NCBI RefSeq assembly: GCF_008629675.1
Contig: NZ_VWOX01000002.1
Span: 372,001-436,000, forward strand
Direction: 5' to 3'
DNA from: Roseiconus nitratireducens
GTDB taxonomy: Bacteria > Planctomycetota > Planctomycetia > Pirellulales > Pirellulaceae
Length of the DNA stretch: 64,000 nucleotides
The translations under genes and the position numbers were made by a program. Positions 3,140-17,593 of the stretch are shown here, one piece after another (positions within the stretch are counted from its first letter, which is position 1; each line of letters begins with the position of its first letter). The notes under the pieces are model-generated. The model was not told the origin of the DNA. It did not search any database and was given only the letters and a program-made list of their open reading frames with translations.

Positions 3140-3332
3140 ATGCGGACAGCGTGACCATCCAGAGGAACACCGCGATCAAGGTTGTCACCGTCAGCAAGGC
3201 GCCCAGCGTCCAGCGGCGGCGGAAGCCTTTCATGGGGATTCGTCGGACAGGGCTCTCGCACCAGGGGCACGTTTCCCGATTCGCGTGGACGCGCGCACCG
3301 CAATCCGCACACGTTTGCCAATTCGTTGTCAC
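3138..3332 (-). CDS. Small zinc-ribbon protein with C-terminal membrane anchor
   Basis: 64-residue protein. Residues 8-25 carry two Cys-x-x-Cys knuckles (CADC and CPWC) spaced as in a zinc ribbon. A basic stretch (MKGFRRRW) follows, then one hydrophobic helix (about residues 42-60) at the very C-terminus. The organised Cys pairs and the helix argue against a chance frame. It is divergent from the radical SAM gene; only 14 bases separate the two chosen starts, so one of the starts may be further in. The function is unknown. It may be a tail-anchored metal-binding adaptor. Confidence 0.65.
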   Translation of the reverse strand: MTTNWQTCADCGARVHANRETCPWCESPVRRIPMKGFRRRWTLGALLTVTTLIAVFLWMVTLSA

Positions 3333-3346
3333 CGAACGCTCATCCG

Positions 3347-4210
3347 ATGGTGTCTCCGCAAAATCGCCCCTTGGACTTTCTATTGGAGCAGGAACCGTTT
3401 CGGAGGGCCAACACGGACGTCAACTTGGTGGACGTTTCGACAATCTTTTTGCTCGGTCAACGATGTCCGGTGGGCTGCGCGATGTGTGACCTTCATGTCG
3501 GCCTGCTAGAGCAGCCGACGCCGGCCGGTGCGATCCCAAATCAGATCGACTTTGCCCAACAGAGATTGCCAACGACGCCGTGGATCAAGCTTTACAACGG
3601 CGGGAACTTTTTTGATCCCAGCGGGATCCCCCCCACCGATTTGCCGGCCATCGCGGATCGTTGTCGGTCCTACGACCGGGTCGTGGTGGAGAACCATCCT
3701 CGTTTTGGCTCGCACCGGCATCGCGAGTTTCGCGACTCGATTCCAGGACGACTGGAAGTGGCCGTCGGACTGGAAAGCGTCCAACCGAGGTTCCTGGATC
3801 GAATCAACAAACGAATGACGCGAGACGATTTCGATCGCTATGCCCGCCGTCTCGAACAATGGGACATCGATTTGCGAGTGTTCTTGATCGTGGGAGCCCC
3901 TGGCCTGTCGATCGCCGAATCGATCCGCTGGGCACGGTTATCGGTCCGGCACGCGATGTCCGCCGGTGCGCGGCACATCAGTTTGATTCCCGCCCGCTCT
4001 GGCAGCGGATGGAATGGCCAGGCCGGAGCCTTGCCGCAAATCACCGCCGATGTGCTGGGCGAATTGTTTTCCGCGTCTCTCGAAGATCTGAGCGGCCCCG
4101 CTTGCTTGTCGGTCGACCTGTGGGGTTTCCAACAGCCGGGCATTGAAGCGGAAGCCCGGTCGGAACTGGGGCGTCTGGAATCGGCCATTCGCAATCAGGT
4201 ATCGCTGTGA
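3347..4210 (+). CDS. Radical SAM protein (Elp3/RaSEA-like)
   Basis: 287 residues from the ATG at 3347. The cluster motif CPVGCAMC (Cys40, Cys44, Cys47) fits the CxxxCxxC [4Fe-4S]/SAM site. It is followed by 'LYNGGNFFDP', 'VAVGLESV' and 'IVGAPGLS', features seen in TIM-barrel radical SAM enzymes of the Elp3/archaeosine-synthase-like group. The stop overlaps the GTG start of the flavoprotein gene by four bases (GTGA), so the two are translationally coupled and probably act on the same substrate. An in-frame start at 3182 would add 55 low-complexity residues and run through the divergent small gene, so I rejected it. The substrate is unknown. Confidence 0.85.
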   Translation: MVSPQNRPLDFLLEQEPFRRANTDVNLVDVSTIFLLGQRCPVGCAMCDLHVGLLEQPTPAGAIPNQIDFAQQRLPTTPWIKLYNGGNFFDPSGIPPTDLPAIADRCRSYDRVVVENHPRFGSHRHREFRDSIPGRLEVAVGLESVQPRFLDRINKRMTRDDFDRYARRLEQWDIDLRVFLIVGAPGLSIAESIRWARLSVRHAMSAGARHISLIPARSGSGWNGQAGALPQITADVLGELFSASLEDLSGPACLSVDLWGFQQPGIEAEARSELGRLESAIRNQVSL

Positions 4211-5703
4211 CCCGTGATTCTTTTGATGTTCTGATCGTCGGATCAGGTTTCTCCGGTTCCATCCTGGCACGGATTCTGGCGACGGCCGGCCGGAAAGTGG
4301 TCCTGGTCGATTCCGTCGCGCATCCTCGTTTCGCAATCGGAGAATCGTCCACACCGATCGCCGATCGCTTGCTGGCCGCTATAGGACAACGGTACAGGCT
4401 TGCTGACCTGATTCAGCTCTCGTGCTACGGCAGCTGGCAGTCCCAGTTTCCACAGCTGGCGTGCGGAAAGAAACGGGGGTTCAGCTATTTCGACCACCGC
4501 GAACCCGGCGGTGAACGTGCTTCGCCGCCTGGCAAGTCAAGTATCCCGGATGGCCAGCGTCCCGAAAGCCAACTCGGGGAGCGAAGCTTGCTGGTCGCGG
4601 CGAGCCCGAATGATGAACGCAGCGATACACACTGGTACCGAAGCGACGTCGACCACTTTCTCTTTCAACGGGCGAAGGACGCTGGGGTCCAGTGCCTGGA
4701 AACCTGCGAGGTCGTGGAATTTTGTCCCGGAGAACCTAATCGGATTCGGATGGCGGATGGACGTGTCCTGATCGCAGATCAGGTCGTTGATGCCTCGGGA
4801 CGATCGGCGGTGACCGCGCGTCTGCTGGATCGCCCCGACTGGACCGTTCGCCTGCGGACTCGAACCTGTTGTTCTTTCAGCCACTATGAGAACGTCTCAT
4901 CGTTCTCGAATCACTTCGATCGCATGCATCAAGATCGGCGGGCGACGGTACCCTTTGATGCGGACGACGCAGCGCAGCATCACTTGGTCGACGGAGGCTG
5001 GGTGTGGATGCTGCGGATGAACAACGGGATCACGAGCATCGGATGCACGCTTACAGGAGATCATCCGGCGTCGGTGGCGCGCAGCCAGCGACTGATGGAA
5101 TCTCGCTTTGAAGATTACCCGGCCATCCACGCCGTGTTGCAGTGTGCACGACCAAGCGAGGCGATCGGTGTCCGGAGCATCGGCCGACTGCAGCACTTTC
5201 GCAATCCAATGGTGGCGCCAACCTGCTGGATGCTACCGACGACCGCGGCCACTTTGGATCCGTTGCATAGTACGGGGATCGCCCATGCCTTGGCTGGCGT
5301 GCACCGCCTCGCCCGCTTGATCCTCCAGGGTCCGACGCAATCTGCCATCGACGAATACCAATCGGTGGTCGTGGGGGAACTGTTGCATTTAGATCGTCTG
5401 ATCCAGCTGGCGTATTCCGCCATGGCATCGTTCGCTCGATTTGAAGCCGCCTGCATGATCTACTTTGCCGCGGCGATCCACACGGAAGAACGACTGCAAG
5501 CGGGAGAACTCCCCCGGACGTTCTGGCTTGCCGATGACGACCGCTTCGTGGCGATGGTCGCCCGCGCGGAACAGTGGATCGTTTCCGGCGCCCCCGACGG
5601 GGAAGTCGTCGGCGCGGTCCGTCGGTTGCTGGAACCATTCAATCAAATCGGCTTGCTGCACGAAGACGTGCATCGCCGGTATGCGTATACCGCGACCAAA
5701 TGA
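4207..5703 (+). CDS. FAD-dependent oxidoreductase, tryptophan-halogenase-like
   Basis: 498 residues with a GTG start overlapping the radical SAM stop. The N-terminal Rossmann motif GSGFSG (12-17) and the acidic strand end (VLVD, to Asp35) bind FAD. The 'GESSTP' segment at residue 45 and 'GGWVWMLRM' around residue 260 resemble the flavin-dependent halogenase / geranylgeranyl-reductase superfamily. 'VVDASGRSA' is the second FAD-binding segment. I cannot point to the catalytic lysine of true halogenases, so oxidation or reduction is as likely as halogenation. The coupling implies one two-step modification pathway with the radical SAM enzyme. Confidence 0.85.
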   Translation: MTRDSFDVLIVGSGFSGSILARILATAGRKVVLVDSVAHPRFAIGESSTPIADRLLAAIGQRYRLADLIQLSCYGSWQSQFPQLACGKKRGFSYFDHREPGGERASPPGKSSIPDGQRPESQLGERSLLVAASPNDERSDTHWYRSDVDHFLFQRAKDAGVQCLETCEVVEFCPGEPNRIRMADGRVLIADQVVDASGRSAVTARLLDRPDWTVRLRTRTCCSFSHYENVSSFSNHFDRMHQDRRATVPFDADDAAQHHLVDGGWVWMLRMNNGITSIGCTLTGDHPASVARSQRLMESRFEDYPAIHAVLQCARPSEAIGVRSIGRLQHFRNPMVAPTCWMLPTTAATLDPLHSTGIAHALAGVHRLARLILQGPTQSAIDEYQSVVVGELLHLDRLIQLAYSAMASFARFEAACMIYFAAAIHTEERLQAGELPRTFWLADDDRFVAMVARAEQWIVSGAPDGEVVGAVRRLLEPFNQIGLLHEDVHRRYAYTATK

Positions 5704-5748
5704 CATCCCGGGGCAGACTTCTCACCGGCCATCTGGTAGACCATCGCC

Positions 5749-6732
5749 ATGAACAAATCACCACGAATCTTCCTGACCCGGCGACTTCCGCCGCAGACGA
5801 TGCGTCGACTGGACGAATCGGCCACCTTGCTTTCCGTCGATCTGGATCGCCCCCTCCGTCCCGAGGAGTTGGCGGAGGGGATCAGAGACGCCGACGGTCT
5901 GATCTGTTTGCTGACCGACAAGATCGACGGCGAATTGCTGGACGCGAATCCCGATTTAAAAGTGGTTTCCAACTATGCCGTCGGGTTCAACAACATCGAT
6001 CTCCAGGCGGCAACCGAACGTCACGTCGCGGTCACCAACACGCCGGACGTGTTGACCGATTGCACCGCCGACATGGCGTGGGCTCTGTTGATGACATCCG
6101 CACGGCGGGTGCTGGAAGGGGATCGCCTGGTGCGTTCAGGACAATGGTCCGGATGGGGTCCGTTGCAACTGTTGGGAACCGAGGTCACCGGTTCCACCCT
6201 CGGACTGGTCGGATTTGGACGCATCGCCCAAGCGGTCGCACAACGGGCCAAAGCATTTCAGATGCGCATTCTGTACTGGAATCGCACCCGACTTTCGCCC
6301 CAGCGCGAAGCCGAACTGGGTGTCGAATACCGTGAACTGGATGAACTGCTGCCGGAATGCGATTTTGTTTCCATCCACGTCGCCCTGTGTGACCAGACGC
6401 GTCATCTGATCTCCGCACCGCAATTTGCTGCAATGAAATCGTCCGCAACGTTGATCAACACGGCGCGGGGAGCGGTCGTGGATGAAGAAGCCTTGGTCGC
6501 GGCGCTTCAACGGAGCGACATCGCTGCGGCGGCCTTGGACGTTTATGAACACGAGCCCGAGGTGCAGGCGCCGCTGCTTGAAATGGACAACGTCGTGTTG
6601 GCGCCGCACTTGGGGAGCGCAACGATCAACACGCGGACGAAGATGGGGAACCTGGCGTTGGAAAACTGCCTGGCGGCGTGCCGCGGCGAGCGGCCACCCA
6701 ACTTGGTCAACACCGACTGGACTGCTCGGTAA
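5749..6732 (+). CDS. D-2-hydroxyacid dehydrogenase (glyoxylate/hydroxypyruvate reductase type)
   Basis: 327 residues, normal length for the family. Catalytic triad candidates are Arg240 (in NTARG), the Glu in the DVYEHEP segment (267-270) and His287 (in APHLGS). The NAD-binding fold has GFGRIA near residue 155. The sequence 'NYAVGFNNIDL' and the length match D-glycerate dehydrogenase (GyaR/GhrB-like) better than long-form SerA, because there is no ACT domain. It probably reduces glyoxylate or hydroxypyruvate with NAD(P)H in the cytosol. It starts 45 bases after the flavoprotein gene and may be co-transcribed. It converges on the SulP gene. Confidence 0.9.
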   Translation: MNKSPRIFLTRRLPPQTMRRLDESATLLSVDLDRPLRPEELAEGIRDADGLICLLTDKIDGELLDANPDLKVVSNYAVGFNNIDLQAATERHVAVTNTPDVLTDCTADMAWALLMTSARRVLEGDRLVRSGQWSGWGPLQLLGTEVTGSTLGLVGFGRIAQAVAQRAKAFQMRILYWNRTRLSPQREAELGVEYRELDELLPECDFVSIHVALCDQTRHLISAPQFAAMKSSATLINTARGAVVDEEALVAALQRSDIAAAALDVYEHEPEVQAPLLEMDNVVLAPHLGSATINTRTKMGNLALENCLAACRGERPPNLVNTDWTAR

Positions 6733-6787: not shown

Positions 6788-6804
6788 CGGTCAACCGTTG
6801 ACCG
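6788..6804. terminator. Small inverted repeat between convergent genes
   Basis: CGGTCAA-CCG-TTGACCG forms a perfect 7-bp stem with a 3-base loop. It sits over the stop codon of the SulP gene and between two convergent genes. There is no T-tract on either side, so this is only a possible bidirectional transcription end. Confidence 0.25.
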
Positions 6805-8836
6805 CCTGGAGGTTCTCATTCGAAAGCTTACTCGTCTCGTCCAACGGTTCCTCGTTGGTGCCGACGAATGGTTCCAACCCGGAAACTTGCACGGTGTCCG
6901 CATAGAACGTCAGCCGATGATTTGGCTGCAGCTCGCGTCGCAGGTATTCCATCATGCGTTCGCACGCGTCCTTGGGAGCCAGGATCTCGATCCGGACCTG
7001 GGAAAGCGGTTCGACAACACCGGTCGGCAGGTTGCTCCGTCCGCTGCCGTAACACGGAATCGACGTGAATCCGCTGGCGCCCAAACGGACCAATTCGCGT
7101 TCCACGGTTTGCTCCAAGTCGGGATCGGTGACGATCGTCAACCGTTTGACCGTGCAAATTCCTTTGCGGCGAGCAGACTGGGCGTGAGCGGCGAATGGCT
7201 GGTGGGCATCCAGGCCGACGACCTCAAAATTCAACCCCTGTTGGGCGAAGTCGGATTCCATCTCGTGCAGTTTGTCCATCACGCTGTGATCGACCAGATG
7301 CGTTTCCGACAGGTCAAATCGGACATTCTTGCGTTCCAGCAACCCGACGCGCTCGATCTGTCGGCGAATCGGAATCCAGTTGCTGAAGACGGCAGATTTG
7401 AACGCCCGGATCGACACGGTTTCCCCGTCGTCGTCGCTGATCTCGATATCAGGCTTGAACAGGGACCGAAGGGGGACTCCATTTGCCAGGTGAATGGCGA
7501 CCTTCGTGGCAATCCCGATGGCAATCCCGATTAGCAAATCTGTCGCCAGCACGGCAACCAATGTGACCACAAAAATCACGAACTGTTCGCGCCCGATCTT
7601 CCACACGTTCATGAACTCGCTGGGGTGGGCAAGGCGAAATCCGGTGTAGATCAGCATCGCCGCCAGAGCGGCCATCGGAATCCGGTGCAGCACCATCGGA
7701 ATGAACGCCACACAGACCAGAAGAAACATTCCGTGCCAGAAATCGGCGAAACGCGTGCGCGCACCATTATCGATGTTCGCTTTACTCCGCACGATCTCCG
7801 AAATCATGGGAAGTCCGCCAACCAACGCGCAACAGAGGTTGCCGGCACCGACCGCCACCATGTCGCGATCCATGCTGCTTTTCCGCTTCCAAGGGTCAAT
7901 GATGTCGACCGCCTTGGCACTCAGTAGCGATTCCAAGCTACCGATAATGAAAAACATAAACACCCATTTCCAGGCAACTGGCTGCTGCAGCGCGGCGAAA
8001 TCAGGGGCCGTCAACGAGTCGAACATTCCGAAGACACGGTCAGGCATGTCCACCAAATAGGTTTCGTCAAGCTGATACTCATGGTTCTGAAGCGTGTAAG
8101 AATGCTTGTGCATCAGATCGAACCCCATCCCCAGCGGGATGGCGACCAGCAGGACGATCAGCGGCGATGGAAGCTTCTTGAGTATCGGAAATTTTTTGCC
8201 GGCCAGTGGCCAGGCGAACATGATCAGGACGCTGATCAGCCCGATCGCGGCGATCGCCGGATTCGCCGCGGCAAGGAATTCGGGGATGCGTTGGAGCAAA
8301 TCCAGGGGTTCGCCCGAGGCGCTCACTCCCAACGCCACCGGGATCTGTTTGGCGATGATGATCACACCGATTGCCGCCAGCATCCCATGGACGGCCGAGA
8401 TCGGAAAAAACTCGCCCAGAATGCCCGCACGAAACATCCCGAACAAGATCTGCAGGACCGCCGCCGCGACTCCGACGGCAAGGGCCGCGCGGTAGGCCGC
8501 CGTATCAATACTGGTCCAATCCCCGACCATGCCGTCGCCACCGAAGTCGCTGATGCAGCCGATGGCGATCACGATCAAACCAGCCGCCGGACCCTTAATT
8601 GTCAGTTCTGAATCACTGATGATCGTGGCAACCACCGAACCGATGATCGCGGTGAAAATCCCCGCGATCGGCGGATAGCCGCTGGCGATCGAGATGCCCA
8701 GACACAGGGGCAGGGCGATTAGAAAGACGAGCAAGCCGGAGACAAAGTCGTACTTGAAGTACTTGGTAAACCCCGCGAGATTCCCGCGAGGCTTTTCCAG
8801 CTCAGCCGGAGTCGACGAATTCATAGAAGATTCCAT
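6791..8836 (-). CDS. SulP anion (probably bicarbonate) transporter with STAS and SbtB-like PII domains
   Basis: 681 residues. Residues about 30-440 are a multi-helix SulP transport domain ([31 protein letters not shown]). Residues about 465-550 are a STAS domain ([19 protein letters not shown]). Residues about 558-655 look like a PII protein of the SbtB type: 'RLTIVTD', 'LGASGFT', 'YGSGRSN', then 'VRIEIL'. SbtB has KLVIVTE, GASGYT and GGKGSRN at the same places. SulP proteins of the BicA type are bicarbonate importers, and SbtB senses adenine nucleotides in carbon uptake. It is last in the dab operon, 80 bases after the NuoM-like gene. A start at Met5 (8824), which has GGAA upstream, is also possible. 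Bicarbonate as substrate is inferred from context. Confidence 0.88.
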
Positions 8837-8916: not shown

Positions 8917-10401
8917 TCATGGGGTCAAGGATCCCGTCGCCGGCGTTTCCATCGAAGGGCGACTTGACGTGTCTTTCCGGACGACCGTGACGTCCGCCGC
9001 AGAACGCAAAGCAAGGTCTTCGTTTCGCTGCTCCGACAGCGCTTGGGCGGCGTGGTATCGGTTCTTGACTCCTGGCTGCGGAAACAATCCGCCCAGCAAG
9101 ATGACGACGCTAAGAACCATCACGGCGAATCGTTCGGCGGGACGGGCGTGCATCGGAACACGGGTTCGATTCTCGCGACCGGTGAAAATCCGAAAGAAGG
9201 CTGAAAGCACCGTGATCCCACTCAGCGCCGCCGCAATCACGACCATCGTTCCCACCAGCGGGTACACCTCAACCGCTCCCTCGATCAACAGTTCCATCCC
9301 CACGAAACCGATGGTTGCCGGAAAGCCGATGGCCGCCAGCCCCGTCAGCAGAAAGAAACCCGCCAGCATGGGCATCTGTCGGTACAGCCCGTGAAAGTCG
9401 ACCAGCGAGATTCGAGAGATGCGTGATTCGATTGATCGCAGGACGATCGCAAACCCGGTCATCGAAAGGCCCACCGAAAGCCACACGCACAGGGCGCCGG
9501 TCAAACCGATCGGCGTGACCAATTCCAAGCCAACCAACACCAGCGACGACTGACTGAGCAGCAAGTAGCAGAACATGCGGCGCGCCTCCCGCTGGATCGA
9601 CGCCATGCCTGCGGCGTAAACCGCCGTCACCAGTGACAGCACGGCAATGCTCTGCAACGCCCACGTGGGGGCGATCGGCAGCACCAGACGCATCACCGCG
9701 TAGGCGCCGACGAGCGGGGTGGTGTAGAGAATTGCCGTTCCGAAGGTTCCCTTCTCAAAAAGATCGGTGATCCACAGATGCAACGGAAAGACACCGCTGC
9801 GTAGCAATGCCGCCACCGTGATCAAAGCCCCCGGAATTAGCGCCGTCGGCGACGCCGGTTCGATCAGTGACAACCAGCCCCAACCGATCACCAGCAGGAC
9901 CGCGAACAATCCCATGTGCAGAGTGTAAATCCGTGTGCACCGCTGGCGTTGACGCAGTTCGATCCAAGGCGGAATTGCCGATCCGATCAACAACAAGATC
10001 AGGGTCCACGACGGCCGGCAGCTAAAGGTGGCCAGCACCAACGTCTCAGACACCAATGCCAGTTCCACCGGAAAACGCGGGGACTTGGTCCGCAGGGTCG
10101 ACGTGATGGTGACCAGAAAGATCAATGCGGCCAGCGGCAATTGAAACGCGCTCAGCTCATCCACCACAAACACGTCGCGGTCAAAAAGCCAATCAAAAAA
10201 CGGCCAATGATCATGAGCTTCGAACGAACCGATCAACGTGAAGTCGATCAATTCTCCCAGGGTCAACAACAACGTCAGACCACAAACCGCTGCGGCGATT
10301 GCCAACACGTTGTCTCGTTTCCCCATGAATTGGATCCACAGGGCACCCAGCAGCGGTACCAGGATGGAGACTTGGATCCAGGGAAAATGAAGCTCGGACA
10401 T
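8917..10401 (-). CDS. NuoM/N-like proton-translocating subunit of the DAB operon
   Basis: 494 residues, nearly all hydrophobic helices, of the complex I / Mrp antiporter subunit family. 'ALLRSGVFPLHLW' aligns with the TM7 motif of NuoM/MrpD, where the first basic residue is normally Lys; here it is Arg201. I do not find the conserved TM5 Glu in the expected 'WE' setting. The ATG at 10401 is preferred to the TTG at 10404. It lies 67 bases downstream of the dabB-like gene, with no other complex I subunit nearby. It is probably an accessory ion-channel subunit of the DAB complex. The cytoplasmic tail (about 50 residues) is low in hydrophobicity. Confidence 0.82.
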   Translation of the reverse strand: MSELHFPWIQVSILVPLLGALWIQFMGKRDNVLAIAAAVCGLTLLLTLGELIDFTLIGSFEAHDHWPFFDWLFDRDVFVVDELSAFQLPLAALIFLVTITSTLRTKSPRFPVELALVSETLVLATFSCRPSWTLILLLIGSAIPPWIELRQRQRCTRIYTLHMGLFAVLLVIGWGWLSLIEPASPTALIPGALITVAALLRSGVFPLHLWITDLFEKGTFGTAILYTTPLVGAYAVMRLVLPIAPTWALQSIAVLSLVTAVYAAGMASIQREARRMFCYLLLSQSSLVLVGLELVTPIGLTGALCVWLSVGLSMTGFAIVLRSIESRISRISLVDFHGLYRQMPMLAGFFLLTGLAAIGFPATIGFVGMELLIEGAVEVYPLVGTMVVIAAALSGITVLSAFFRIFTGRENRTRVPMHARPAERFAVMVLSVVILLGGLFPQPGVKNRYHAAQALSEQRNEDLALRSAADVTVVRKDTSSRPSMETPATGSLTP

Positions 10402-10468
10402 CAAACGGTCACCATGGAGGAAATGGCCGGTTGCGTCCGCGTCCCGGCAGCGACATACAAATCAGACA

Positions 10469-11869
10469 TCAGGCAGCCTTCTCCAATTCTTCCGGGTGCA
10501 GCTTTGCCTGCTCAGATTCTCGCGAGGACTCCCGGCTGATCACGTCGGTCACTCGATGTTCGACGCGATCAAACCAAGAGAAAAAATCCTGGAACGGCGC
10601 AACAATCCAGCGGTCCAGCGCCGTGTCCATGAAGCCACGGTCGAAGCCGAAGCGATAACACCAGCGTTGAACATCGACCGGCAGATTCCGAGCACCTGCC
10701 CATGCTTCGCGTGGCAGACGTGACCCCATGGCATTCTCCAATTCGTCGTAGTCACGCAACAGCGTCGGGGCACGAAGCAACTGCATGGTCCGAAGGCAGG
10801 CGTGGCCGACGATGTGGATGAGCGCCAAATAGTGCAGGCCCAATCCGATCTCGATCACGATCAGCCCCACCTGCGTCAGCGAGGCGTAGGCCAGCGAAGC
10901 CTTGATGTCGCTTTGCACGCGAGACATTAGCGAGCCGCTGATCGCGGTGACCGTCCCCAATGCGATCACCATCAACTGCAGTAGCAACGAAGCTTGGATG
11001 ATCGGGCTGACTCGCAGCAACAGAAACGCTCCCAGGTGGACCGACAACGCCCCATAGAAAATGGCACTCGAAGGGGTCGGCCCCTCCATCGCACGCGGCA
11101 GCCAGCCGGAAAAGGGGAACAGAGCTGATTTCCCGGCCGCAGCGACCAGCAACAGACTGCCGACCAATAATGCTTGAGTCGAGGTGATCGTCGCCGTGCC
11201 GTACGGCCAAACGCCGGTACTGAGCAGCCCCCCAAAATCGCCCCGTCCGGTCATGTGATGCATCGTGATCGCCGCGATCAGGAATGCCGCGTCGGCCAAG
11301 CGATACACCGACCACACGCGTTGCCCGTTGCGGACGGGGTTCTCCCGTTCCAAGAAATAGGCGACCAATAACGCCGAGGAAAGCCCGACCATCTCCCAGC
11401 CGACGAACAGCGTTTCGATGGTGCCGGCCAGCGATGACGTCACCATGCCCGAAAAGAAAATGGCGTAGTACAGAAAGAACCGCCCATAACCCTCTTCTCG
11501 GTGCAGGTACCGTTGCGTGAACGCCCCCACGATGCCGCACAGAACGCACGAAAGCAACACAAACGGGATGCTCAACGCGTCGAACACGAACTTCAAGTGA
11601 AAGTGAAAATGATGTTCGGGGATCGTGACCCAATCGCCCCATTCCACGGGGACATAGCTGCGACCGACCACCAACATCAACCCGACCAGTGTCAGAGCGG
11701 AGGCCAGCGCAACAGCGACCGCGACCTGAGTCATCCGAGAGATCAGAGACTCCGTGAGCGGTTTGCCGACCAGGGCGGAGACTCCCAGGACGGCAAGCAA
11801 GATCATCGGGCTGGCCACCACGGCGGTTCCCAAGACCTGAAACGGCATTTCACTGTCAATCACATTCAT
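10469..11869 (-). CDS. dabB: DabB: NuoL-like proton-conducting subunit of inorganic carbon transporter
   Basis: 466-residue membrane protein of the NuoL/MrpA family. Proton-channel residues are kept: Glu159 in GWEMVGLSS and Lys247 in [13 protein letters not shown]. '[16 protein letters not shown]' is the TM8 segment. In the later HA-x4-K segment the Lys is Arg ([10 protein letters not shown]). It is much shorter than NuoL (about 610), as DabB proteins are. It lies 70 bases after dabA in the same direction. In the DAB system DabB couples proton entry to CO2 hydration by DabA at the inner membrane. The identity rests on pairing with a DUF2309 gene. Confidence 0.85.
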
Positions 11870-11939: not shown

Positions 11940-14900
11940 TCATCCTGCGGGTGGGGCGCGGTCGACGATCGAGGCAAAACCCAGATTGGTGCGGGTTCCT
12001 CGGTACCAGTCGATGGAGGATTCGACTTGCGGCAGATCGTTGGACGACGGCGTGTAAGGTTCAAATTGTCTGTCGACGTATCGCATGATCGAGGACGTTT
12101 CCGGATCGATCAGGGCAACCGAAACCCAGTGACCCTCGACCAACCGCGCAATGCCTTCGTTCTTTTCAATGATCCGAGCCATCTTTTCGGGCGTGGTCTC
12201 AATGACGAACAAGATCCGCATCGGTTCGTGAATCTCGATCATCTGCTGGGAAAGCCCCGGTCGCAGGTCACTGGCGGCTCCCGTCATCACCCCGACCATC
12301 GAAGCGACGTTGTGGGGCAACTTCGATCCGCATCCGTAGCCTTCGACGTCGATCGACGAGAAGTAATACTCCAGACTGATGCCGGCACACACGGGGATGG
12401 CGGCCGAAAGGATCCGCGTCAGCACGTTGACGTCCTCATCGTCGACGGCCGGATCGTACTCCGTCAGAAAAACGCGACGGTCCATGAACAGCCCCCGCGT
12501 CCAGTGGCGACGACCGACCGTCACCAGAGCATTGGTGGCGTGATTGTACTCCGGACGTGCCTGAGAGAGATCCTGGGAACGCTCCTCAACGTGCTCGAGC
12601 GCCTCACGCGGTGTCATATCCAGTGGCGCCGATTCGAATCGTCTGGCACGCTCGTGCGCGTCCCTCGCACGTGTCTGATCCACGCTCTTCTCGATCTCGC
12701 GAAACAGTCCTCGGTGTGAACGCGGCAACAAGTCCAAATCGTAGTACTCAACACTGTCGTCACAGGTGTTGTGGAAGGCGCCCACGAACCGAACCTCAGA
12801 GGGAAGTTCGATGCCCCGCTTTGCAACCAGCTCGCGGACCCGAGGATCATTGGCCATCATCGCGAACGCCCGGGCGTTGGGCCCGCCACGGCCACCGCTG
12901 CAAGCACCGCAGTTGTAAGCGGATTCATGCGGATTGTTCAGACTGCTGCTGCCGTGACCGAAAAAGACGACGATCCGAGGCAGATTCTTGACGTGTCCGA
13001 TGTCCTGCAGGATGCGCACCACGATCGCCGCCATCTCGTCCAGGCTGTAGCCGAGCGACTCGGGATCCGATCCCGGTTCCTCGGCTTCGCGTTCCAAGTG
13101 CAACTCGGTTGCCGGCGGACGCATGAAGGTTCCCAGTGATTCACGCATCTTGGCGGTTAACCGCGGGGCCAGGATCCGCGTGACCATTGGAATCGTCGCC
13201 AACGCCCCAAACACCGCCGTGAACATCCCGCCAATCAGGGATCGCGAGTTTGCGTGGACCCGGTGCTTCATCTGGCCCAGTTGGCGTCGTCGATTGGCCC
13301 GCCGTTTACTCGCTTCGATGGTGGAAAACAGCGGCTCCTCTTGCACGTAGTGATTGGGCTGGATGATGGCCGGACACAACGGGCGGTAGTGTGCTTGATC
13401 GGCTCCGCGATAATACATCGCAACGGCAAAGAAGCCCGCGGCTGACGCCGTTTCGCAACGCGGATCGACTTCCTCCAGATGCCGACGAAAGGATTCTTCC
13501 CGGTCATCGATGCAAAACACCGCCAAGAATGACGGCTTGGTTTCCGGGCTTCTCGGCAATTCTCTCCGGCGTCGGGCGTGCACCGCCAGGGCGTCCAACG
13601 TCTGCACCATGTAATGACGCTCATAGGCCGTGTGCAAGATCCGCCGTCGTTCCAAGGAAGAAAACGACTGGAACTCGTTCACCAGACACGTCCACTGGTG
13701 ACTGGTCATGTCGAACAACTGTTGTGGAGTCCAACCGCCAATCTGCGCGACCTGAAAGATGGCATGCGTCCGCTCATCAATCGACGGTTGATGGCGAGCC
13801 TCCGTCGCCGAATCGACACGACTGCGAATCTGCGCCAAATCCGAAGTACCGAAATGACGGCGACCGACATCGGAAATGGCATACCGCTGCAAAAGCAAAC
13901 GGATCGCCAAGTATTCAAAGAAGGAACCGTCGGGAATCGGCTTGGGCAGGAAAGGTGTCGCCGTTTCCATCTGCCAAATCATTCCCGCCCAGCCTCGCAA
14001 CGCCAGCGCGGCCTCGCAGATCTCTTCATCGAATTCGTCGAATTCGATGCCCATCCGCGCCAGTGAATCGGCAATCGAAAGCATCGGATCGAAGGGCCCC
14101 TCAACGATCGCCCGCAGTTCGCGTTTGATGCCCTCCATCCATGCCGGAGTGACGACCAGTTTCTCCAAATACAGTTTCGCAAATGATGTTGCAAATCCTA
14201 GGTCGCGGTCCGGAAGTTCCCAGTCCGCAAATCCCTGATCGAGGAAGACGCCAACGAATCGAATCAGGACGTCGTTGACCACCCTGGCGGTGTCTTCGCC
14301 GGTGACTCGCGAGATCTTCTGATGCAGGGTCAGCGGGGTCGAGGCCGTCGGAGACGGGACCTGAGCCTGCTGGATGCCGTCGCGACATGCCTGCCACAAC
14401 AATCGCAACGTCAATTCTTCCCATCGCCGCTCGGACCAGTGCTGAATGTCACCGCTCCCGAAATCCGACATCACTCCCAAGACCGATTCGGGAAGCGACG
14501 ACGCGGCGGTGCTGTCGGCCGACCGCGCGGACCCGGCAACGTGACGCGCGACCCAATTTCGCGTCTGAGTGATCATCTGCTCTCGCCGCTGCGGCGACAC
14601 TTCTTCGCGGAATTTTCGCAGAAGATCGGTTTCGGCGATCAGCCACCGCAATTCGGCATCGGGCACCGCATCGATCGTGACCTGCAGCATGGCCAGGCGG
14701 AGCGTGTACCGGGTCCCAAAGCTGGCCACCAAGTCGTCAGCATGATCACCCAAGTCGTCCATCAACACCTGACGCAGATCATCAATCGAAATCCGACCGC
14801 GGTGAAGTTCATCCCGGTAACGCGACTCCGACAAATACGGTTCGCAACCGTATCGACGTCCGCCCTCGATCACGGCTTGGTCGAAAGGCAGGTGTTCAAA

Positions 14901-15065
14901 CGAATGCAGCGTGTTGTGGTGAACGAAGATCGAAATCGGGCCCTGCGTCGGCAGGTACTCAATCGCGTGCTCGATGGCTCGAGCCAGACTCTCCGGCTGA
15001 ATCGATGTGCCCAATCGAGAATCGGCGCTTTCGTTTGCCGGGATCACAACGGAAGCGTCGTGCAT
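11940..15065 (-). CDS. dabA: DabA: DUF2309 inorganic carbon transporter catalytic subunit
   Basis: 1041 residues of the DUF2309 (DabA, also MpsB) family. The beta-carbonic-anhydrase-like zinc site is intact: Cys518 and Asp520 in 'FCIDDREESF', His704 in 'FFGHGSSSLNNP' and Cys719 in 'NCGACSGG'. The 15-residue His-Cys spacing equals that of Halothiobacillus DabA2 (His524, Cys539). The N-terminus has 'FVHHNTLHSFE', a family motif. It converts CO2 to bicarbonate vectorially on the cytoplasmic side, using the ion gradient through DabB. The start is ATG with AGGA about 10 bases upstream. It is the first gene of a four-gene minus-strand operon. A 1.2-kb non-coding region lies upstream. Confidence 0.95.
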   Translation of the reverse strand: MHDASVVIPANESADSRLGTSIQPESLARAIEHAIEYLPTQGPISIFVHHNTLHSFEHLPFDQAVIEGGRRYGCEPYLSESRYRDELHRGRISIDDLRQVLMDDLGDHADDLVASFGTRYTLRLAMLQVTIDAVPDAELRWLIAETDLLRKFREEVSPQRREQMITQTRNWVARHVAGSARSADSTAASSLPESVLGVMSDFGSGDIQHWSERRWEELTLRLLWQACRDGIQQAQVPSPTASTPLTLHQKISRVTGEDTARVVNDVLIRFVGVFLDQGFADWELPDRDLGFATSFAKLYLEKLVVTPAWMEGIKRELRAIVEGPFDPMLSIADSLARMGIEFDEFDEEICEAALALRGWAGMIWQMETATPFLPKPIPDGSFFEYLAIRLLLQRYAISDVGRRHFGTSDLAQIRSRVDSATEARHQPSIDERTHAIFQVAQIGGWTPQQLFDMTSHQWTCLVNEFQSFSSLERRRILHTAYERHYMVQTLDALAVHARRRRELPRSPETKPSFLAVFCIDDREESFRRHLEEVDPRCETASAAGFFAVAMYYRGADQAHYRPLCPAIIQPNHYVQEEPLFSTIEASKRRANRRRQLGQMKHRVHANSRSLIGGMFTAVFGALATIPMVTRILAPRLTAKMRESLGTFMRPPATELHLEREAEEPGSDPESLGYSLDEMAAIVVRILQDIGHVKNLPRIVVFFGHGSSSLNNPHESAYNCGACSGGRGGPNARAFAMMANDPRVRELVAKRGIELPSEVRFVGAFHNTCDDSVEYYDLDLLPRSHRGLFREIEKSVDQTRARDAHERARRFESAPLDMTPREALEHVEERSQDLSQARPEYNHATNALVTVGRRHWTRGLFMDRRVFLTEYDPAVDDEDVNVLTRILSAAIPVCAGISLEYYFSSIDVEGYGCGSKLPHNVASMVGVMTGAASDLRPGLSQQMIEIHEPMRILFVIETTPEKMARIIEKNEGIARLVEGHWVSVALIDPETSSIMRYVDRQFEPYTPSSNDLPQVESSIDWYRGTRTNLGFASIVDRAPPAG

Positions 15066-17066: not shown

Positions 17067-17150
17067 GTGTAGCTACGCTCGCCAGAGCGTGGCTTTCCGC
17101 CATATCCGTCGGCTTGCGCCGACGGAAGAGGGCTGTCATCGCTAAGCGAC
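17067..17150 (-). repeat. Composite repeat: GAGCG hairpin plus partial family I element
   Basis: 17069-17102 (hairpin ACGCTC-GCCA-GAGCGT and flanks) is identical over 34 bases to 18239-18272. It is followed at 17106-17125 by CCGTCGGC-TTGC-GCCGACGG, an 8-bp perfect stem that is the core of family I, and then by GGGCTGTCATCGCTAAGCG, the inverted orientation of family I's arm. Confidence 0.75.
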
Positions 17151-17194
17151 TGAAATCAGGCAAGGTCCAGCAACGCCGGATGGAACTTGCCAGA

Positions 17195-17410
17195 TTATCC
17201 CTGTTCGCCACGCAGTTGGAACCCGATGCTTCGTCGGGCCTCAAGCACAGCGCGTCGCTTTTCCTCGTCATCCTGGGAAACTTGGATCTCCGCAGTGAGG
17301 TTGGTGTTGGATTGGTTGTTGGTGTGTTCTCCATGCGGATGGAGCGCGTCGTAGGCCGATCCCGACAACAGGGCTGTCGTCAACGACAATGCAAGTGATC
17401 GTGTTTTCAT
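17195..17410 (-). CDS. Possible small secreted protein
   Basis: 71 residues. It starts MKTRSLALSLTTALLSGSAY, a short basic and hydrophobic leader that could be a signal peptide. A polar Asn/Gln-rich part and a charged C-terminus (DDEEKRRAVLEARR) follow. GAGAA lies about 6-10 bases before the ATG. It has no known domain. A second small exported protein gene lies 184 bases upstream on the same strand. It could be a chance frame. Confidence 0.5.
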   Translation of the reverse strand: MKTRSLALSLTTALLSGSAYDALHPHGEHTNNQSNTNLTAEIQVSQDDEEKRRAVLEARRSIGFQLRGEQG

Positions 17411-17593
17411 GATCGTTTCTCAGGTACGGACAATCGCCGGCGGTCGCCGGCATCTCGCTTCAATCAGAATCAGAAAGTCCCCGCGGAGATGTGACTGGTG
17501 ACGAACCCACCTGTCGCACAACCGCGGGGACGAATTTGGCGACGCGGATGAAGCAGACGCGTCGCACGGAGCGAACGGGAAAGGAAACGCGGT

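Follow-up and report, generated by a model that had tools for sequence, protein, structure and literature searches.

An SbtB-type PII-like domain fused to a SulP transporter encoded beside DAB genes in Roseiconus nitratireducens

Organization of the locus

The DNA analyzed here (the window) is a stretch of 64,000 nucleotides from contig NZ_VWOX01000002.1 of R. nitratireducens, and gene coordinates refer to this stretch. Four genes follow one another on its minus strand, separated by gaps of 70, 64 and 80 bp: those for DabA (11940..15065), a DabB-like, NuoL-type membrane subunit (10469..11869), a second antiporter-like subunit resembling NuoM/MrpD (8917..10404; M in what follows), and a SulP transporter with a C-terminal extension (6791..8836). 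The first product was identified as the CO2-hydrating subunit by its match to PF10070 (E 1.9e-226) and its alignment to DabA2 (9rd0_A), where C351, D353, R355, H524 and C539, named as active-site residues (PMC13144422), correspond to C518, D520, R522, H704 and C719, the zinc and Asp-Arg residues thus being kept. With the second product, complex I subunits rank first, and DabB2 (9rd0_B) is matched at E 1.6e-26. The existence of a DAB operon, proposed in a preliminary description made from the sequence alone, is therefore well founded. Like DAB1 and DAB2 of Halothiobacillus, it combines a DabA having the same active-site residues with a DabB-like subunit, but it differs from them in the extra NuoM-like subunit and the SulP gene that follows. 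DAB systems have been described with two or three subunits, of which one is antiporter-like; this statement, and those cited below by PMC number, refer to the accessible excerpts of the respective papers. On the plus strand, a tryptophan-halogenase-like FAD protein is encoded at 4207-5703, and the adjoining ORF (3182-4210) contains a CxxxCxxC motif and looks radical-SAM-like by eye.

Domain architecture of the SulP protein

The SulP gene is one ATG-to-stop ORF encoding 681 aa. Pfam (PF00916), the helices in the AlphaFold model and alignment define a SulP/SLC26 transmembrane domain at residues 20-455 (7472..8779, minus strand), Sulfate_transp matching residues 27-425 with an E value of 3.5e-56. 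It is followed by a STAS-like domain (residues 463-547; 7196..7450, minus strand), delimited by alignments to two SLC26/SulP structures, which end at residues 544 and 546, and by strands and helices in the model, and by a PII-like domain of the SbtB/TTHA0516 type (residues 564-657; 6866..7147, minus strand), recognized by Pfam (PF00543), hmmsearch against the PDB, AlphaFold and Foldseek. P-II was matched at residues 564-642 (E 9e-10, 39.3 bits versus a cut-off of 25), and with 43.7 bits when the domain was analyzed on its own. The order SulP, STAS and PII given in the preliminary description thus stands for its first and last elements, which pass Pfam, while STAS_2 reaches 12.9 bits, below its cut-off of 29.2, and the middle element is STAS-like by its alignment to SLC26/SulP structures. 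The protein ends in a tail (residues 658-681; 6794..6865, minus strand) that is predicted to be disordered, with pLDDT below 50 at residues 662-681, and fast-evolving, the tails of relatives having higher dN in close pairs over the 13-23 codons compared only.

A scan of genome contigs with the full-length alignment returned 519 relatives, and the long tail containing the PII domain is present in 76 of the best 80. This, together with the single ORF, bears out the covalent joining of a PII-like domain to SulP and shows that other fusions of this kind exist; a frame error or assembly artefact as the source of the fusion can be ruled out, since the fusion recurs in 76 of the 80 loci kept.

The C-terminal domain groups with SbtB and TTHA0516 within the PII superfamily

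The four sequence landmarks on which the resemblance to SbtB had originally been based were found close to where they had been placed (RLTIVTD, 565-571; GASGFT, 586-591; YGSGRSN, 596-602; VRIEIL, 614-619). An AlphaFold model computed from 77 aligned fused domains showed a b-a-b-b-a-b arrangement with a mean pLDDT of 86 (about 97 in the core), that is, a ferredoxin-like fold in which, also according to Foldseek, the loop between strands 2 and 3 is present. A profile of 23 fused domains, run against the PDB, gave E values of 2e-20 for TTHA0516, 1e-8 for SbtB and 3e-6 for canonical PII. In Foldseek, the top 50 matches listed all belong to TTHA0516, SbtB, CPII or 3dfe, a PII-like protein of Anabaena. 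The predicted match to the PII/SbtB fold was therefore obtained, with TTHA0516, SbtB and CPII as the best matches. TTHA0516 (2cz4, Thermus), the top hit in both sequence and structure, has a loop of similar length, but is a stand-alone protein with the loop motif GEGSRGIR. CPII of Thiomonas shares the PII-like fold and has entries titled as complexes with ADP, AMP and bicarbonate; it differs in being stand-alone, with 15-19% identity among the Foldseek matches listed. CPII is associated with the carboxysome.

In two trees, a branch with support of 100/98 and 100/99, respectively, had the fused domains and SbtB/TTHA0516 on one side and the genome's canonical PIIs on the other, the former tree calling for caution in view of its long branches. 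Stand-alone SbtB/TTHA0516 proteins formed a supported group of their own, and the fused PII domains may or may not make up a single clade (AU p 0.39, in the analysis that gave the 100/99 branch). The genome encodes four other PIIs above the cut-off; these carry the GDGK B-loop, which the fused domain lacks, and they branch separately from it. A canonical PII identity was rejected on these grounds. The results support the assignment of the fused domain to the SbtB/TTHA0516 side of the superfamily, and not to canonical PII. There is no cysteine at residues 652-681, so the CGPxGC C-terminal redox loop, found in some SbtBs only, is absent.

Loop and beta-3 residues

The T-loop that the preliminary description expected is present between strands 2 and 3 (residues 598-613; 6998..7045, minus strand), as seen in the model and the alignment, but it is shortened: compared with the profile of fused domains, that of SbtB has four more residues and that of canonical PII (1hwu) seven more. 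Its base reads G-S-G-R-S-N-L-P and does not match the SbtB pattern GxGSRxxR. The equivalents of SbtB R43 and R46, both required for apyrase activity (PMC10117731), are S601 and P604, and both positions are Arg/Lys in just 2 of the 77 fused domains, while Arg or Lys occupies position 600 in 66 of them. E617 and R615 of the beta-3 R-I-E motif are kept in 77/77 and 76/77 domains, respectively. The GxGR loop motif has been lost, with the strand pattern kept, at the C-termini of six SulP relatives (L057, L058, L063 and L066-L068), and a Pfam match to P-II was not found in three fused relatives with degenerate loops (L057, L064 and L066). Since the motif is lost in some lineages, nucleotide binding cannot be general.

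The combination of a kept fold and R-I-E motif with T-loop arginines that are not kept and loop motifs lost in several lineages could indicate that the domain is an assembly module and no sensor, linking SulP proteins to one another or docking them to DabA/DabB, its ligand binding having decayed. We regard this as rather unlikely, as 62 of the 77 fused domains still match the loop signature G..G.T/GxG[RK], which decay would not preserve.

Distribution, descent and selection

Among the matches listed for 60 genomes, the one under study included, the match extends to at least residue 640 in 23 genomes. A sample of the phylum (392 genomes) contained 29 with close SulP homologues at E 1e-100 or below, 30 matches in all, 20 of which reach at least residue 640. 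The best 80 of the 519 relatives are all titled as planctomycetes except L116 ('bacterium') and L108 (Methylococcaceae). The latter has the fusion and branches among planctomycetes in the SulP tree, and it is probably a misbinned contig. This tree was built with 65 fused rows, 20 non-fused rows and one outgroup row; its earliest-diverging branches lack the fusion and at least seven changes are needed, which would fit an early gain and repeated loss of the PII part, with backbone support being partial and some long branches meeting.

No separate PII gene was found in the stretches round 22 non-fused loci (some of which represent the same gene twice, and some of the stretches being short), so the idea of such a gene substituting for the lost domain was discarded. 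Non-fused loci without a PII gene nearby suggest that the domain is dispensable in some lineages. In one fused relative (L035), a separate PII-like frame of 131 aa (17079-17471) is located downstream of the fused gene, at a distance of about 5 kb, and matches the fused-domain profile at E 1.6e-5.

Where it is retained, the fused PII part is under purifying selection. In the six closest pairs, which represent three lineages, the PII part had dN/dS values of 0.098-0.150 and the membrane part values of 0.020-0.051, the PII part thus evolving faster than the transporter part; for the short tail, the calculation was feasible in five of the six pairs and gave 0.15-1.3. A PII part that is a non-functional leftover carried by the transporter might be suspected from the apparently several losses and the degeneration in some lineages, but it is very improbable, given this selection, in contrast to the values for the tail, and the existence of near-invariant positions across the 77 fused sequences.

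Stand-alone relatives accompany SbtA

The fused-domain profile matches 32 of 294 planctomycete genomes. Among its matches that are not part of a SulP protein, the 12 with the best E values (1.6e-21 to 6.1e-10) directly adjoin an SbtA gene in every case (12/12). The module carried by this SulP protein is therefore of the kind that partners SbtA elsewhere, here joined to a transporter of a different family. Planctomycetes with an ordinary SbtA and a stand-alone SbtB-like neighbor were represented by L169 (1730-2029), L181, L182, L184-L190, L192, L193 and L196, and in another genome (G050) SulP is non-fused and an SbtA gene is followed by a stand-alone SbtB-like gene. A search of plasmids gave three matching records, the best one (Arthrobacter) being a separate gene after SbtA and another lying in an unannotated stretch.

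Among the matches listed for the 294 genomes, with at most 15 candidates scored per genome, 13 genomes had the fusion, 12 had SbtB and none had both, numbers too small to establish a mutual exclusion between SbtA-SbtB and the fusion. Two genomes (G048 and G049) carry SbtA together with a SulP-PII fusion. Their SbtA homologues (L171:1477-2865 and L170:1471-2838, respectively) have long Gly/His-rich insertions in the middle, and no SbtB-like gene was found beside them in the stretch examined.

Association with DAB genes

Of the loci in genome contigs, 50 have 6.5 kb or more of upstream sequence. Same-strand genes for DabA, DabB and M were found directly upstream of the SulP gene in 36 of these (35 by script, plus L087, scored as partial by the script and having all three on reading), and 14 had no DAB genes there. 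DabA and DabB without the NuoM-like gene were not observed directly upstream in any of the 50. The PII part is absent in two of the 36 DAB-linked loci (L130 and L153), and is found in each of the 14 that have no DAB genes directly upstream. In two non-fused relatives (L023 and L024) the SulP gene precedes DabA. The frequent DAB linkage would suit a domain that docks SulP to DabA/DabB, while the 14 fused loci without such genes directly upstream speak against that role. A SulP-PII copy without DAB genes in the stretch examined (L096) has a beta-carbonic anhydrase gene (5200-5865; PF00484, E 3e-47) about 2 kb upstream.

Neither SbtA nor RuBisCO_large was matched at E 0.01 in the R. nitratireducens genome, which is about 93% complete. 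A role in a Rubisco CO2-concentrating mechanism is thus unlikely, and was rejected for this genome only.

The transporter part differs from BicA

The transporter had been described as BicA-like, a designation that holds only loosely. The protein scores 104 bits with the BicA model NF050096, far under the cut-off of 880, and the residues of the Na+/HCO3- site of BicA, T69, D258, T262, G300, A301 and T302 (PMC13249358), align to A84, E302, S306, S346, E347 and I348 (the chain numbering in this alignment being shifted by one), so that membership of the BicA family was rejected. These six residues are invariant in 49/49 aligned fused sequences, as is R350, which aligns to prestin R399 and has no arginine counterpart in BicA. 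The replacement of the BicA site and the SLC26-type R350 suggest that the substrate is probably an anion handled in the SLC26 manner.

These same features, along with the low NF050096 score, could mean that the protein moves some other anion, such as sulfate or chloride, in exchange for bicarbonate made by DAB, which would be used or balanced in this way, with the PII part regulating that exchange. This explanation, which overlaps with the one we favor as to the PII part, is a possibility to be taken seriously, if not the one we would expect; against it, the frequent adjacency to CO2-hydrating DAB genes and the carbonic anhydrase gene near the DAB-less copy point to inorganic carbon. From the operon, bicarbonate is probably the substrate.

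A possible built-in regulator

Taken together, we consider it somewhat probable that the DAB operon here encodes an SLC26/SulP anion transporter in which an SbtB-type PII-like domain placed after STAS serves as a built-in allosteric regulator. Its most likely role would be that of a switch on a DAB-linked transporter of an anion, probably bicarbonate: the PII-like domain would respond to adenylate or a similar ligand, and the signal might pass via STAS. With a short T-loop and a tethered domain, action via STAS or DAB contacts is to be expected, and not a plug of the SbtA type, in which the T-loop of SbtB reaches about 20 angstroms into SbtA (PMC8352866). Several results weigh against the regulator proposed here, namely the R43/R46 equivalents that are not kept, the loss of loop motifs in some lineages, the faster evolution of the PII part, the 22 non-fused loci, the 14 of 50 loci, all fused, without DAB genes directly upstream, and the different residues at the BicA site.

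SbtB/SbtA, present in cyanobacteria and others, offers the closest parallel in that a PII-like fold of the same branch is tied to an inorganic-carbon transporter. SbtB, a protein that binds adenyl nucleotides, is however a separate trimer that acts on trimeric SbtA via an extended T-loop (PMC8352866), whereas the domain described here is covalently attached to an unrelated, dimer-type SulP, has a short T-loop and does not keep R43/R46. BicA and other SulP/SLC26 bicarbonate transporters share the SulP fold with STAS; BicA dimerises via STAS, and SbtB is reported to bind it physically in trans (PMC13249358). BicA differs in its Na+/HCO3- residues, and the excerpt of that paper does not describe a PII domain in it. 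SulP-carbonic anhydrase fusions also join SulP to a domain related to inorganic carbon (PMC6458275), the partner being an enzyme and not a sensor domain.

PII proteins are homotrimers whose ligands sit in the clefts between subunits, and attachment of such a domain to a dimer-type transporter creates a symmetry mismatch. Ligand-dependent PII trimers might join three SulP dimers into an array, so that transporters and attached DAB pumps are switched together, or the sensor could be non-trimeric; we hold this idea to be doubtful. If this reading were true, PII control would extend beyond trimeric transporters, to which it seemed limited according to a 2023 review (PMC10710835); the presence of a PII domain on a dimer-type family already challenges that limit.

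The SulP-PII fusion is not named in the titles and abstract openings of the literature searched, whose coverage is partial, and the architecture may already be recorded in domain databases; the new element is SbtB-type regulation moved in cis onto SulP, for which we do not claim priority. The covalent fusion of an SbtB-type domain to SulP, kept in many planctomycetes, represents independent evidence that the pairing of the SbtB-BicA type is functional, and provides a single-gene system in which to study it. In R. nitratireducens, where RuBisCO was not detected, a DAB operon may carry built-in regulation of its partner transporter.
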